Of a DNA stretch of 51,715 nucleotides, positions 5,851-31,755 are shown piece by piece. A program made the position numbers and the translations under genes. Numbering within the stretch: position 1 is the stretch's first letter; each line of letters starts with the position of its first letter. Source of the DNA: an uncultured Candidatus Nitrosopumilus sp. (GTDB lineage: Archaea > Thermoproteota > Nitrososphaeria > Nitrososphaerales > Nitrosopumilaceae); contig CAJQMY010000022.1 in NCBI GenBank assembly GCA_905479565.1, positions 1 to 51,715 on the forward strand, read 5' to 3'. The notes beneath the pieces are model-generated. The model searched no databases. It saw only the letters and a program-made list of their open reading frames with translations, and had not been told where the DNA came from.

Positions 5851-6329
5851 TGAAGCCTGTTAGAAAAGCGACACTTGCTGGTGTGGCCACTGTGGTGGTA
5901 TATCTTTCTGTGGTTGTAATTACAACTCCCGCATTGGAACCATTGGATGCAATTAGTGCGGCATTTCAGCTAAATTCCATAGTGATAGTTGGAATGGGGA
6001 TTGGAATTGGATTGCAAGTGTTTCTTTCAGAGAAAAGTAAGACTTTGGCCTGTAAACTTGATATAAAGAAAAAGGCACTTGGCGGAAATACTGGAAGTAC
6101 TGCTGCCACATCATTTTTCTCATTTTTCTCTTTGGTTCCTCTTGGTTGCTGTGGTTGGTGGCTCTATGCATTGTCTTTACTTCCAGGTGTTGTAGGAATT
6201 GGAGTGTCTGCAATTTTAATAGAATATAGTCAAGTTTTAGCTTATGTTGGATTAATCATAATTTTTGGATTTGCAGGATTAACTGCATACAAATTAAAGC
6301 AAGAACAAAAATTACAAAAAACTATTTGA
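5847..6329 (+). CDS. Four-helix membrane protein coupled to DUF3179
   Basis: A 160-residue integral membrane protein. It has about four hydrophobic helices (residues 8-30, 43-63, 86-118, 126-150) and a basic C terminus. A Cys pair (LVPLGCCGWWLY) sits within the third hydrophobic region. The start codon overlaps the stop of the DUF3179 gene (ATGA), so they form an operon and may act together at the membrane. I do not recognise a named family. A redox or metal-related role for the CC pair is speculation. Confidence 0.7.
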   Translation: MMKPVRKATLAGVATVVVYLSVVVITTPALEPLDAISAAFQLNSIVIVGMGIGIGLQVFLSEKSKTLACKLDIKKKALGGNTGSTAATSFFSFFSLVPLGCCGWWLYALSLLPGVVGIGVSAILIEYSQVLAYVGLIIIFGFAGLTAYKLKQEQKLQKTI

Positions 6330-24298: not shown

Positions 24299-24781
24299 AT
24301 GTGGGCGATTCTTTCTATTTTGGTTGAAAATAAACCTGGAATTTTGTTTAAGATAACTCATCTTTTTAGAGCAAGAAATTTCAATATTGATAGTATCTCA
24401 GTAGGAATTACTGAAAATCCTGATTATTCCAAAATGACCATTACCACATACGGTGATGAAAAACGAATCGAGCAGGTAGTAAAACAACTCGATAAAATGA
24501 TTGATACTGTCAAAGTCGAGCACTTGGATGAGTCTAAAACCGTATTTCGAGAACTATGTATTTTTAAGATAAATCTCAGTAATGCCAATGATAGCATGGA
24601 GGTTAACAAATTAGCAAATGCATATGGTGGCAAAGTCCATGATGTGAAAAAAGACTCTATGATGGTAGAGTTGTCTGCTACTCCTGATCAAGTCAAAGCG
24701 TTTGAGGAATTGGCAAGACCATTTGGAATACTTGATGTTGCACGAACCGGTGTTGCCGCATTACAGCGAAGTGGTGCATGA
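24299..24781 (+). CDS. ilvN: Acetolactate synthase, small (regulatory) subunit
   Basis: About 160 residues. An N-terminal ACT domain (LSILVENKPGILFKITHLFR, then IDSISVGITENPDYSKMTIT) is followed by the ilvH-type C domain (FRELCIFKINLS, GGKVHDVKKDSMMVELSATP). It binds valine and activates or inhibits IlvB. The start is GTG 24296 or ATG 24299; I use the ATG. It starts 10 bp after ilvB and overlaps the next gene by 4 nt (ATGA). Confidence 0.92.
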   Translation: MWAILSILVENKPGILFKITHLFRARNFNIDSISVGITENPDYSKMTITTYGDEKRIEQVVKQLDKMIDTVKVEHLDESKTVFRELCIFKINLSNANDSMEVNKLANAYGGKVHDVKKDSMMVELSATPDQVKAFEELARPFGILDVARTGVAALQRSGA

Positions 24782-25932
24782 TGGTAAATGTCAGAATTTT
24801 TGATACTACATTACGTGATGGTGAGCAAACACTTGGTGTGTCTTTGTCCCCTGATCAGAAATTAGCAATCGCAAAAAAACTCGATGACTTGGGAGTCGAT
24901 GCAATTGAGGCAGGGTTCCCAGTAATTTCTGAAGGCGAATTAAAAGCAGTTAAGATGATTACTTCTGAAGGTTTGTCTTGTGAAATTGCAGGGTTGACCC
25001 GAACCATCAAAAAAGACATTGATGCAGCAGTTGATGCAGGATTAAATTATATTCATACATTCATTGCAACATCTGACATACATTTGGAGCACAAGCTCAA
25101 AATGACTCGAGACCAAGCACTTGAAAAAGCAATTGAGGCAGTAGAGTATGGAAAGTCTCGTGGATTGCAAGTAGAGTTTTCAGCTGAGGATGCATCTCGA
25201 ACGGACCGAGAATTTTTGAAAAAAGTTTTTGGTGATGTTGCAAAAGCAGGTGCTGATCGTGTTAACATTCCTGATACTGTGGGATATTGCACTCCTGAGT
25301 ATATGGCTGAAATAACCAGGGACACTATTGAATCTACAAAGCTCCCAGTAAGTGTTCATTGTCATAATGATTTTGGATTGGCAGTTGCAAATGCGTTATC
25401 TGGAATCCATGCAGGAGCTGCATGTGCGCATGTTACAGTTAATGGAATTGGGGAGAGGGCAGGAAATGCTTCCTTGGAAGAATTTTCAATGGCCCTCAAA
25501 TGCTTGCCATACGAGCAAAACTATGAAACCCGTATCAAATCTGAACTAATCTATGACACTTCTAGATTCATCGCAAAGATTGTTGGGATAATTGTGCAAC
25601 CTAACAAGGCAATAGTTGGGGCAAATGCGTTTGGACACGAGTCTGGAATTCATACTCATGGCGTATTGAATAATCCGCTTACCTACGAACCAATAAGTCC
25701 TGAACTGGTAGGAAGAAAAAGATGGCTAAAGGTGGGAAAACATGCGGGAGTTCATGGGATGAATGCAATGTTAAAAGAATATGGAGTAAGCCCAACTGAA
25801 GAACAAGCGCAACAGATCCTAGACAAGGTCAAAGTACTTGGTGATCAAGGAATACAAGTTACGGATGTAGAATTGCTATCTATGGCAAGCGAAGTTTTAG
25901 GTGAAAAGAACTCAAAAGAATTGTACAGTTGA
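24778..25932 (+). CDS. leuA: 2-isopropylmalate synthase, catalytic domain only
   Basis: A 384-residue HMG-like TIM barrel. The family motifs are clear: IFDTTLRDGEQTLGVSLS (metal Asp and Arg), DAIEAGFPVISEGE, SAEDASRTDREFL, VNIPDTVGYCTPEYM, VHCHNDFGLAVANAL (two metal His) and NGIGERAGNASLEE. It uses 2-oxoisovalerate and acetyl-CoA at the start of leucine synthesis; citramalate or homocitrate synthases share the fold, but the operon favours leucine. The protein ends after the linker subdomains (GVSPTEEQAQQILDK). The leucine-sensing domain is not fused but is the next ORF, overlapping by 4 nt. Confidence 0.9.
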   Translation: MMVNVRIFDTTLRDGEQTLGVSLSPDQKLAIAKKLDDLGVDAIEAGFPVISEGELKAVKMITSEGLSCEIAGLTRTIKKDIDAAVDAGLNYIHTFIATSDIHLEHKLKMTRDQALEKAIEAVEYGKSRGLQVEFSAEDASRTDREFLKKVFGDVAKAGADRVNIPDTVGYCTPEYMAEITRDTIESTKLPVSVHCHNDFGLAVANALSGIHAGAACAHVTVNGIGERAGNASLEEFSMALKCLPYEQNYETRIKSELIYDTSRFIAKIVGIIVQPNKAIVGANAFGHESGIHTHGVLNNPLTYEPISPELVGRKRWLKVGKHAGVHGMNAMLKEYGVSPTEEQAQQILDKVKVLGDQGIQVTDVELLSMASEVLGEKNSKELYS

Positions 25933-26288
25933 CTGGTTTTTCAGTTTCCACTGGAATAGGAACCATGCCTTATGCATTTGTAAAGTTAAACATTGATGGT
26001 CAGGATCACATTGGAACTGATTACGGAGTCGGACCTGTGGATGCTGCACTAAATGCAATCCAGAAAATTACAGGCAAGATTTCAGAGATTAGAATCAAAG
26101 ACTATGGATTGGCGTCAATTTCTGGCGGTTCTGGTGCATTATGTGAAGTGACAGTGAAAGTTGAGGATCCTTTAGGAAACAAGGTCTCAGCAAAATCAGT
26201 CGGTGAGGACATTGTAACCACTTCTGTAAAGGCAGTAGTTGATGCAATCAATCGAATCATGCTTAAAAAAATGCTTAGTGAAAAGTAG
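25929..26288 (+). CDS. Stand-alone LeuA allosteric (regulatory) domain
   Basis: A 119-residue ORF starting at TTG 25929 inside the stop of the catalytic gene (TTGA). It matches the C-terminal regulatory domain of 2-isopropylmalate synthase: PYAFVKLNIDGQDHIGTDYG, VGPVDAALNAIQKITGK, LASISGGSGALCEVTVKVED and GEDIVTTSVKAVVDAINRIM. In most organisms this is fused to the catalytic part and binds leucine (or isoleucine in citramalate synthase). Here it is a separate protein, so the enzyme would be a two-subunit complex. The overlap shows co-translation. Confidence 0.85.
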   Translation: MTGFSVSTGIGTMPYAFVKLNIDGQDHIGTDYGVGPVDAALNAIQKITGKISEIRIKDYGLASISGGSGALCEVTVKVEDPLGNKVSAKSVGEDIVTTSVKAVVDAINRIMLKKMLSEK

Positions 26289-26328: not shown

Positions 26329-27342
26329 ATGTATACAATTTCTTTAATCACAGGAGACGGAATTGGCCCTGAACTATCAGAATCTGTAATCTCTGTTCTA
26401 AATACAATTCAAGATAAATTTGATTTGAAGTTTGACATTGCTAAATTGTCAGCTGGTGACTTGGCATTGGAAGAAACTGGAAAAGCACTTCCTGCTGAAA
26501 CAGTTGAATCAATAAAGCGTTCTGATGCGTGTTTGAAGGCTCCAGTTGGTGAAAGTGCGGCTGACGTAATTGTAGTGTTGAGGCGAATGCTTGACTTGTA
26601 TGCCAATATTCGACCTGCTAAATCATATCCGCATATGCCTGCATTACGCGATGACATTGACATGGTAATAGTTCGAGAAAACACTGAGGATCTTTACACT
26701 GGAAAAGAATTCAGCTTGGGTGATTCCTCAGTTGCATTGAGAATAATTTCTGAAAAGGCCTCAAAACGAATCGCAAGGTATGCGTTTGAAATTTCAAGAC
26801 AACGTAACTCTATGAGAAAAGTAACATGTGTTCATAAATCAAACGTCATGCGAATTACTGATGGCATGTTTGCAAAAGCATGCACTGATGTGTCAAAAGA
26901 CTATCCTGACATTGCATTTGAAGAAATGTATGTTGATGCATGTGCTATGAATTTAATTCGCCAGCCTGATCAGTTCGATGTTATAGTTACTACTAATCTC
27001 TTTGGAGATATCTTATCTGATGAATCCTCCCAAGTAGTTGGAGGATTAGGTATGGCCCCTGCTGCCAACATTGGAGATGATTTCGCGTTGTTTGAGCCAG
27101 TTCACGGTGCGGCATTTGATATTGCAGGTAAAAACATTGCCAATCCATCATCATTCTTGTTATCAATTAAGATGATGCTTGACTGGTTGGGAAACAAACA
27201 TGGTGATTCAAAATGTATTGAGGTTGGTCAAAAATTAGAATCGACTATTTTTGATTTGGTAAAGACCGGTGTTAAGACCCGAGATATTGGTGGAGATAAG
27301 AGTACGACTGAATTTACAAAACAGATTACAGATAATCTTTGA
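26329..27342 (+). CDS. leuB: 3-isopropylmalate dehydrogenase (isocitrate/isopropylmalate family)
   Basis: A 337-residue beta-decarboxylating dehydrogenase. Motifs: LITGDGIGPELSESV, metal and substrate sites MVIVRENTEDLYTGKEF, CVHKSNVMRITDGMF, VDACAMNLIRQPDQFDVIVT with DILSDESSQVVGGLG (metal Asp), and FEPVHGAAFDIAGKNIANP for NAD binding. It sits at the end of the ilv-leu operon, 40 bp after the regulatory domain, hence leuB rather than isocitrate or homoisocitrate dehydrogenase. A TATA-like AACCTAAAAT about 30 nt upstream could also give it its own promoter. Confidence 0.88.
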   Translation: MYTISLITGDGIGPELSESVISVLNTIQDKFDLKFDIAKLSAGDLALEETGKALPAETVESIKRSDACLKAPVGESAADVIVVLRRMLDLYANIRPAKSYPHMPALRDDIDMVIVRENTEDLYTGKEFSLGDSSVALRIISEKASKRIARYAFEISRQRNSMRKVTCVHKSNVMRITDGMFAKACTDVSKDYPDIAFEEMYVDACAMNLIRQPDQFDVIVTTNLFGDILSDESSQVVGGLGMAPAANIGDDFALFEPVHGAAFDIAGKNIANPSSFLLSIKMMLDWLGNKHGDSKCIEVGQKLESTIFDLVKTGVKTRDIGGDKSTTEFTKQITDNL

Positions 27343-27459: not shown

Positions 27460-27582
27460 ATGTTATTCAAATGTCCTGTATGTCCTACCGATGATCCGAT
27501 GAAGTATATTACAAAACAACATTTGGAACTTCACATTAATCACAATCATCCAAATGTGGTAAAAATGGTTAGCAGAGGATAA
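27460..27582 (+). CDS. 40-aa C2H2-type mini zinc finger
   Basis: An ORF below usual cut-offs, ATG 27460 to TAA 27582. It starts MLFKCPVCPTDDPMKYITKQ, with a CxxC pair at residues 5 and 8, followed by His at 21, 25, 28 and 30 (HLELHINHNH). This gives a C-x2-C-x12-H-x3/x6-H classic finger. It stands alone as a single finger, so it likely works as a dimer or partner. The minus-strand ORF here is its shadow. Confidence 0.7.
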   Translation: MLFKCPVCPTDDPMKYITKQHLELHINHNHPNVVKMVSRG

Positions 27583-27934
27583 GACAAAAGGAGAATCAAT
27601 CTTAAATATTTTTAAACAATAACAGTACTGTGTCTTTGACTCGTTATCATCATGGTGTTGTTTCAATTCGTTAAGATGCGATTAATACAATCATAACCAT
27701 AGTTGCAAAAAAGCATAGATGATTTAGAAGTTAGAATGAATAATTAAATTTGACACTGAGAAACAAGATAGATTAAAAAATTGAAATATTTTTTATATTC
27801 ATAATTTTAGTTAGAAATATTATTTGTGTTTGTTACTGGTTCTATTGTGCCATACTGCATAATTTTGTGCGTAAATGTGGGATTTTCGTTTTTTACATGT
27901 GGCCTCTAAATAATTTTTTATTTATAATTAAGAC
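27583..27934. other. A+T-rich spacer without a recognisable gene
   Basis: No ORF longer than about 20 codons with protein-like composition is visible. The strongest elements are T-rich runs near 27788-27800 and the TATA-like stretch at 27914-27929 that precedes the candidate RNA. Confidence 0.5.
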
Positions 27935-28070
27935 AACGAGATACAAGGAAACACGTTGAATAAAGGACGCATTCCTAACATGATGTGTTTCCTGACCGAT
28001 CATTCTACGACGCAGAACAATGGTTTCCCGTCATGTCTGTTACGTGAAAATCATATTTAAGAATGATCTT
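27935..28070 (+). ncRNA. Candidate structured non-coding RNA
   Basis: This block is richer in G+C than its surroundings and has no ORF. A perfect 9-bp stem pairs AGGAAACAC (27946-27954) with GTGTTTCCT (27985-27993). A second 7-bp pair is GATCATT (27998-28004) with AATGATC (28062-28068), enclosing a short GACG/CGTC stem (28009-28012 with 28029-28032). A TATA-like TTATTTATAAT lies just upstream at about 27918-27928. The nested stems and promoter suggest an RNA gene of about 120-130 nt. I do not recognise a known RNA family. The strand is chosen by the TATA position. Confidence 0.5.
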
Positions 28071-28305: not shown

Positions 28306-28437
28306 ATGGCAGATTGTTGTATTTGTAAAGCCGTTCCTGGGACCCTGAAAATCACTGATGGGAATCCGAAATATAAAGGAAAACCGATTTGTAAGGAATG
28401 CTCAGGATATCGTAAATTGCTCAAAGAAACTAGGTAG
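28306..28437 (+). CDS. 43-aa zinc-ribbon miniprotein
   Basis: ATG 28306 to TAG 28437, below usual size cut-offs. MADCCICKAVPGTLKITDGN opens with a CxxC pair (plus an extra Cys), and ICKEC follows in the second half, giving a C-x2-C-x21-C-x2-C treble-clef or ribbon pattern. It is Lys-rich and basic, so nucleic-acid binding is plausible. It converges on and overlaps by 8 bp the end of the gene at 28430. Confidence 0.7.
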   Translation: MADCCICKAVPGTLKITDGNPKYKGKPICKECSGYRKLLKETR

Positions 28438-28684
28438 ATTTTTCTGATTTTGTTTTGTTCTTTGCAGCCCATTCCTCATACATTTTGATTAGTTCATCTA
28501 CGTCTTTGCCTTCTTCAGAATAAGTTACGATTACTCCAAATGTCCCTTTTGCATCGTGTCCCCTTGCAAAGTATCCCCAAAATGAATCCGGTAATTTAGC
28601 AAAACTACTGGAGTCATGTGATATACCAATTAAATTATTTCCAATTACCTCTACAACTTTTTTTGCATCCTTTTGATCAATCAT
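28430..28684 (-). CDS. 84-aa hypothetical protein, last gene of the aspS operon
   Basis: A small alpha/beta protein: DAKKVVEVIGNNLIGISHDS, FWGYFARGHDAKGTFGVIVT, ELIKMYEEWAAKNKTKS. No family is recognised. It begins 2 bp after the zinc-binding gene (28687-28920), so it is the fourth member of a tight operon with aspS. Its function may be tied to translation by context only. Confidence 0.65.
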   Translation of the reverse strand: MIDQKDAKKVVEVIGNNLIGISHDSSSFAKLPDSFWGYFARGHDAKGTFGVIVTYSEEGKDVDELIKMYEEWAAKNKTKSEKST

Positions 28685-30735: not shown

Positions 30736-30766
30736 TTAAATCGACTTTTTCATTCTGATAATGTTG

Positions 30767-30773
30767 TTTATAT
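30767..30773 (+). promoter_or_regulatory. TATA box upstream of the ABC ATPase
   Basis: TTTATAT is 44-50 nt before the ATG at 30817, giving a transcript with a short leader of roughly 20 nt. A purine stretch (taagagaac) just before the ATG could serve as a ribosome site. Confidence 0.4.
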
Positions 30774-30816
30774 CCCTTGATGAAAACAAAAATTCTAGTT
30801 TGGATTTAAGAGAACA

Positions 30817-31755
30817 ATGACATTTTTATCTGTTAGCGGATTGTTTTCTAAATATTCTTCATCTAAAGGATCTGTCTATGCAGTAGACGATGTGGATTTT
30901 GAATTGAATGATGGTGAATCTATAGGGATTGCAGGTGAGAGTGCATGTGGAAAAAGTACCTTGGGTTTGTCATTAATTCGAATGCTTTTGGGAGGGATCT
31001 CTGAGGGATCTGTCTCTTTTGACGGAGTTTCTATTTTAGATGTGGCAGAGTCAGAATTTGATGATACTTATAGATGGAAAAAAATTTCTATGATTTTCCA
31101 GGGTGTCATGAATTCGTTGGATCCTGTATTTACTATCAATGAACAGTTCGTTGAAATTCTAAAAGTACATTTTTTTGATGGTGATTCAAAGAAGATAATT
31201 TCAGATGCCATGAATTCTGTATCCCTTGATGAAAATATTTTAAAAAAATATCCTCATGAATTAAGCGGTGGGATGAAACAAAGAGTTATCATTGCAATGG
31301 CATTGCTACTTAAACCAAAATTTGTAATTGCCGATGAACCTACAACTGCATTAGATGTTTTAATCCAAGCTCAAATCATCAATTTGCTGAAATCTCTAAA
31401 AAAAGAAGGCATGTCTTTTATGCTAATTACTCATGATTTAGCGGTTTTATCTGAAATTGCTGATAAAATTGGTATAATGTATGGGGGACAAATGGTAGAA
31501 TTTGGCTCTTCAGAACAAATTTACAAAAATCCAAAACATCCCTATACTCAGGTACTTTTAGAATCTATTCCTACCTTGAAAGGAAATCCTCCAAAATATA
31601 TCAAAGGAATTCCTCCAAGCTTACTTGACGTCCCAACACAATGCAGATTCATTGAAAGATGTCCATTAGCTATAGAAAAATGTAAAGAACTTCCTCCTAA
31701 ATTTAAAACTGAAACTGGTTATGTAAGATGTTGGTTATACGAAGATGAAAAATAA
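30817..31755 (+). CDS. Oligopeptide/dipeptide-type ABC transporter ATP-binding protein
   Basis: A 312-residue DppD/OppD-like ATPase. Walker A is GESACGKST (40-48), the ABC signature LSGGMKQR (near 149), Walker B FVIADEPTTALD (near 169-180), and the H-loop LITHDLAV follows. The oligo-HPY C-terminal domain (NPKHPYTQVLLESIP, FIERCPLAIEKC) includes Cys residues typical of iron-sulfur or zinc sites in this family. It would power uptake of peptides or nickel-type complexes. There is no permease or partner ATPase next to it; the 3' side holds only a broken membrane-protein gene. Confidence 0.88.
   Translation: MTFLSVSGLFSKYSSSKGSVYAVDDVDFELNDGESIGIAGESACGKSTLGLSLIRMLLGGISEGSVSFDGVSILDVAESEFDDTYRWKKISMIFQGVMNSLDPVFTINEQFVEILKVHFFDGDSKKIISDAMNSVSLDENILKKYPHELSGGMKQRVIIAMALLLKPKFVIADEPTTALDVLIQAQIINLLKSLKKEGMSFMLITHDLAVLSEIADKIGIMYGGQMVEFGSSEQIYKNPKHPYTQVLLESIPTLKGNPPKYIKGIPPSLLDVPTQCRFIERCPLAIEKCKELPPKFKTETGYVRCWLYEDEK

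Follow-up and report, generated by a model that had tools for sequence, protein, structure and literature searches.

Several small RNAs encoded between archaeal genes have been described. Methanosarcina mazei sRNA154 and Haloferax volcanii sRNA132 are intergenic, small, structured and transcribed from promoters of their own, and they are presumed to act in trans (PMC5867862; PMC6560208). The RNA gene that we describe here, from a marine, ammonia-oxidizing, Nitrosopumilus-like archaeon, has its own promoter, lies between genes and contains no open reading frame (ORF), as these intergenic sRNAs (itsRNAs) do. Unlike sRNA154 and sRNA132, it belongs to a different lineage, forms a three-way junction with a terminal helix, and occurs as several paralogous types on one scaffold. 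To our knowledge there is no sequence relation between it and either of those RNAs. A second point of comparison is Tan1, an abundant 229-nt noncoding RNA of marine Euryarchaeota (PMC5069720), which is likewise an unknown noncoding RNA of complex structure; it is twice as long, comes from another archaeal lineage, and is set beside our RNA by description only. The same genomes also encode RNase P RNA (RF00373) and the archaeal signal recognition particle (SRP) RNA (RF01857). These too are stable and structured, but they are about 280 to 315 nt long and, in the genome studied here, present in one copy each at other loci. Archaea also use many C/D-box and H/ACA-box modification guides, whose size range is similar and whose hairpins also carry internal loops.

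The stretch of DNA that was analysed, called the window here, is 51,715 nt long and belongs to a 1.42-Mb genome in 64 contigs. The RNA locus is intergenic, with a leuB-type gene, whose closest named relatives are from Nitrosopumilus, on one side and a small unannotated gene (28430-28684, minus strand) on the other. The product of the latter, of 84 amino acids, has no Pfam match and falls in a cluster of 20 proteins encoded near RNA loci, downstream of the RNA at some and upstream at others. Two plus-strand ORFs at 27460-27582 and 28306-28437 (40 and 43 amino acids) flank the RNA gene on either side; their paired cysteines, or Cys/His, look zinc-finger-like, and neither has a Pfam match. Elsewhere in the window, the LeuA_dimer regulatory domain of an isopropylmalate/homocitrate synthase-like gene (24778-25932, plus) sits on an ORF of its own (25929-26288, plus) that overlaps the first.

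A sequence-only reading had proposed a plus-strand structured RNA of no known class at 27935-28070, preceded by a TATA-like box. The block folds better than its shuffles on either strand (z = -3.8 for plus, -2.6 for minus). With a 151-base query, blastn found matches in 111 of 250 Nitrosopumilaceae genomes, often at least two in a genome, at E values up to 0.1 and thus with chance tails included. Relatives were 74 to 89% identical to the window block, and aligned in one orientation they revealed a conserved block with many invariant columns. Three covariance models, R1, R2 and a deliberately broad R3, match the window at 27930-28045 on the minus strand (E = 1.5e-27 with R1). Weak matches elsewhere in the window, at 30766-30868 and 6016-6138, lack much of the pairing and resemble chance.

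What fold do the relatives support? Read on the minus strand, RNAalifold predicted three elements, P1, P2 and P3, and in the 83-row model alignment these form a three-way junction in which the terminal helix P1 closes the hairpins P2 and P3 (Table 1). The compensatory changes that the sequence-only reading had suggested looking for are abundant: across the 83 model matches, pairing holds in 94.2% of cells, and double changes occur in 131 cells spread over 23 of the 29 pairs. These counts lean towards the model's own structure, to which the alignment was fitted. Shuffled counterparts reached 88.4% paired, 11 pairs with double changes and 27 such cells. On all five measures covariation exceeded every one of 500 shuffles as well as the slid controls, which were 36 to 58% paired. 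One row, L158 3035-3147 (minus), mirrors a true copy on the antisense strand, and we omitted it from the loop and cap counts, which are over 82 copies. The P2 cap reads CUGCGUNGUAG in 73 of these, and the loop UCAUGUUA is present in 72, CAUGUUA in 77.

The same alignment tells the strands apart. Read as minus it contains 314 G-U and 33 A-C cells, values that swap when it is read as plus, and pairing drops from 94.2% to 82.4% on the plus strand. Because G-U cells so exceed A-C cells, we assign the RNA to the minus strand. Two peculiarities of the window copy agree with this: an A-to-G change in P1 retains a G-U pair on the minus strand only, and P3 lacks one A and one U, lost from opposite arms. 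The perfect 9-bp stem of the sequence-only reading is real and conserved in relatives; it is the base of P3, where AGGAAACAC (27985-27993) pairs with GUGUUUCCU (27946-27954). Its second stem (27998-28006 with 28060-28068) fared differently, being complete in 1 of 30 sequences, the window itself, and pairing the RNA with its own promoter. Variation in relatives thus breaks that stem and spares both the first stem and the different, minus-strand structure. On the strength of the G-U/A-C counts and of what becomes of this stem in relatives, we rejected the plus-strand orientation. By comparison among relatives, we regard the existence, strand and fold of this RNA gene as very nearly certain.

Upstream of P1 the copies share a fixed layout on the minus strand: GATCA, TTAAATAT, TTTTgACGTA, then the closed structured RNA with a U-rich run at its end. 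Information content is highest over GATCA, TTAAATA and TTTTgACGTA and declines immediately ahead of P1; beyond about 40 nt upstream it is no higher than background. In 70 of 81 copies, 29 nt separate the first T of TTAAATA from the P1 strand. A search of 21 genomes for the composite promoter, allowing one mismatch, found it at RNA loci only. According to PMC8553660, archaeal TATA boxes lie about 28 nt upstream of the start; transcription should therefore begin at or just before P1, and we predict the 5' end of the RNA at about 28033 (±2) in the window. With the RNA occupying about 27930-28033, the rest of the interval given in the sequence-only reading, 28034-28070, is promoter outside the RNA. 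The TATA-like box that had been placed on the plus strand near 27920 lies within an unconserved A+T-rich stretch beyond the minus-strand U-rich 3' tail; the conserved box lies at the opposite end, on the minus strand.

Table 1. Features of the RNA locus, in window coordinates
Feature	Position	Strand	Basis or remark
leuB-type gene	26329-27342	plus	Pfam Iso_dh
Type A structured noncoding RNA gene, about 100-105 nt	27930-28033	minus	Models, covariation, TATA-to-P1 spacing
GATCA, at the position of the TFB-recognition element (BRE); putative BRE by analogy with archaeal promoter layout	28064-28068	minus	1.5-2.0 bits per base
TATA box TTAAATAT	28053-28060	minus	Most conserved promoter element, 80 aligned copies
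Conserved promoter-proximal stretch TTTTCACGTA (consensus TTTTgACGTA)	28041-28050	minus	Copy alignments
P1 5' strand (UGACGGG) of the terminal closing helix	28027-28033	minus	97.2% of cells paired, 6 of 7 pairs with double changes
Hairpin P2, cap UCUGCGUCGUAGA	27995-28024	minus	Helices 2 and 3, 10 of 13 pairs with double changes
Hairpin P3	27946-27993	minus	Helix 4: 92.5% paired, 7 of 9 pairs with double changes
Unpaired UCAUGUUA, P3 internal loop	27976-27983	minus	Unpaired in consensus fold; most conserved loop of the RNA
P1 3' strand (CUCGUUG)	27934-27940	minus	Covariation
U-rich 3' tail, putative termination region	27930-27934	minus	TTGTTTT in most copies; termination inferred

Could this be a member of a described RNA class? 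Rfam 15 gave no match at gathering level in the window; at permissive settings there were only chance matches near the locus, far below threshold, and none on the RNA. ARAGORN reported no tRNA or tmRNA. The RNA gene matches neither RF00373 nor RF01857, and we rejected the idea that it supplies a missing housekeeping RNA, since RNase P and SRP RNAs are encoded on other contigs of the same genome (G000 C13 and C18). A virus- or plasmid-borne origin was likewise rejected: pattern matches in viral contigs had no model match, and phages and plasmids yielded no match. We found no description of the RNA in the part of the literature that was searched; transcriptome supplements may hold one. With its covariation and phylogenetic spread, the earlier assignment to a structured RNA of no known class is upheld. 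The family appears to be new and, in kind, an archaeal intergenic sRNA.

In the genomes sampled the RNA is confined to part of one family. Of 250 Nitrosopumilaceae genomes, R1 detects it in 85, which belong to 4 of the 22 genera, and R2 in 86; R3 reaches 100, the extra genomes being mostly due to the related types B and C described below. No match was found outside Nitrosopumilaceae in samples of 300 and 400 genomes of the class. Genera with the RNA include Nitrosopumilus, Nitrosarchaeum and Nitrosotenuis, the latter two designated "-like" by leuB similarity to named records. Most complete Nitrosopumilus and all four Nitrosotenuis-like genomes of the final set have it, and whole genera of the family are without it. 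Carrying genomes have one to four copies. In nine Nitrosopumilus genomes lacking the RNA (G099, G107, G108, G110, G111, G129, G133, G147 and G162) first-look candidates were also far fewer, which suggests that base composition may differ there; the RNA may truly have been lost from them, or the search may have been less sensitive.

The neighbours of the RNA fall into several recurrent settings and many single ones, and the RNA always stands alone; since neighbouring genes vary, the RNA gene is autonomous and not a leader. Copies sharing a setting are more alike than copies in other settings (86 to 87% identity within groups A and B, 72% between these groups), which indicates old paralogues inherited vertically. 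Some members of the superfamily lie close together: two at L143 (3001-3121 and 3501-3609, minus), one of them type A, are 380 bases apart; types A and C at G136 C3 100658-101243 (L328) are separated by about 330 bases; and at L197 members at 1875 and 3893 are 1.9 kb apart.

Weak R2 and R3 matches with the same promoter spacing exposed two further groups, types B and C. Both have the promoter spacing, P1 and P3 base of type A, the window's type; their loops differ. Type B, about 94 nt, carries GATCAAACTTAAATATTTTT and AACAAGAAAATGC (L275-L284, L266, L268, L270), and was found in Nitrosopumilus genomes; L333 is also of this type. Type C, about 110 to 170 nt, carries ACGAGGAACTATC...GATAG and GGAAAACACGAAAAAGATGGAAGCATC (L264, L267, L269, L272, L285-L306, L323, L325-L330, L332, L334) and occurs in Nitrosopumilus, in Nitrosarchaeum-like genomes and in one further genus. 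TATA-to-P1 spacing is 29 to 30 nt in 13 of 14 type B copies and 28 to 29 nt in all 33 scored type C copies. Five low-scoring R3 matches (L324, L331, L335, L336 and L337) were dropped because they lack the sequence hallmarks. In the window's own genome R3, through which alone types B and C were sought, finds type A alone. Neither type matched Rfam up to E = 2.

Across 25 diverse members, 92.3% of cells in the common scaffold pair, and double changes are seen at 22 of its 29 pairs. The apical hairpin of type C, GATGGAAGCATC / GGTGGAAGCACT, covaries; it alone was recovered when RNAalifold was run on a MAFFT alignment of type C, with 10 to 13 double changes at two pairs, and support for the outer helices of this type comes from the model alignment. 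From the shared P1, P3 base and similar P2 (CTRTCATATCTGC...GTAGAC), a likeness clearest in Nitrosotenuis-like type A, we infer that types A and C are homologous. We tentatively propose, at somewhat less than even confidence, that A, B and C form one modular RNA superfamily peculiar to Nitrosopumilaceae, in which the constant promoter spacing, P1 and P3 base would form a scaffold on which a dedicated protein sits, and loops that are exchangeable but each conserved in its own right would give every type its target.

What might the RNA do? The main rival to a regulatory role is a structural one: the RNA could be the housekeeping component of an RNA-protein machine peculiar to the lineage, much as SRP and RNase P RNAs are of theirs. 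Its strongly conserved structure, closed ends, conserved loops and dedicated promoter speak for such a part, as does its presence in most complete Nitrosopumilus and in the Nitrosotenuis-like genomes. Against it, genomes range from none to four copies, positions vary and whole genera are without the RNA, and RNase P and SRP RNAs are separately present; we consider this reading unlikely, though it deserves to be kept in mind. An unusual modification guide of C/D or H/ACA type is suggested by the P3 internal loop with its conserved bases on one side. Yet by inspection of the alignments there is no conserved pair of C (RUGAUGA) and D (CUGA) boxes and no conserved ANA box beside the hairpins or next to P3, no Rfam model matches, and the strand facing UCAUGUUA is variable, so that there is no bipartite guide. 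A guide function is therefore very improbable.

The occurrence of several copies at different places in a genome might instead reflect a small mobile or repeated element, MITE-like, with the P1 arms as terminal inverted repeats. We give this even less credence: the copies are divergent, not near-identical, and fall into the positional groups noted above, a conserved promoter sits outside the repeats at fixed spacing, and the G-U bias marks a single transcribed strand. A riboswitch, an attenuator or another leader acting in cis could likewise be structured and intergenic. Against this stand the element's own promoter, the U-rich tail at its end and the different genes that follow in either orientation. 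No same-direction downstream gene is conserved across loci, and in the window and at L188 the RNA converges with the leuB-type gene; a leader seems extremely unlikely. Least credible of all is a short coding gene. A conserved ATGTTA, the sole conserved ATG, could open a 6-codon ORF in some copies, but it is followed directly by 1-nt indels between relatives (L184, L193, L200) and by immediate stops in others. The absence of an ORF claimed by the sequence-only reading thus stands, with the addition that the locus is intergenic and this ATG does not code.

Variable copy number and lineage-specific loss are best fitted by a regulatory sRNA in an RNA-protein particle. We lean modestly towards a trans-acting small RNA that would work in such a particle. 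In this mechanism the dedicated TATA/GATCA promoter would start the RNA on the minus strand; its 5' and 3' ends pair as P1, and it carries P2, P3 and the U-rich tail, at which transcription would terminate. A protein would sit on a common scaffold made up of P1, the base of P3 and the tail; the likely contact sites, the unpaired UCAUGUUA and the P2 cap, both type-specific, would bind a target or partner. The gene, its strand, fold, promoter, spread and autonomy are established by comparison; transcription, termination and action in trans are predictions. Does the loop act on start codons? Its complement UAACAUGA would cover one; it is not enriched there, occurring in 1 of 487 contexts against a permutation mean of 1.9. 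General anti-start-codon action is thus unlikely and we rejected it; single targets could still be reached in this way.

Few microbes of the sea are as abundant as ammonia-oxidizing archaea, and the literature we searched contained no regulatory RNA from them. A conserved multicopy family whose promoter is fixed and whose interaction loops are clear offers a concrete probe for RNA-based regulation in the group, and the models are ready for annotating more than 80 genomes and for seeking the RNA in marine metatranscriptomes. If our proposal is true, the superfamily would be an unrecognised RNA-protein regulatory system of these abundant archaea.
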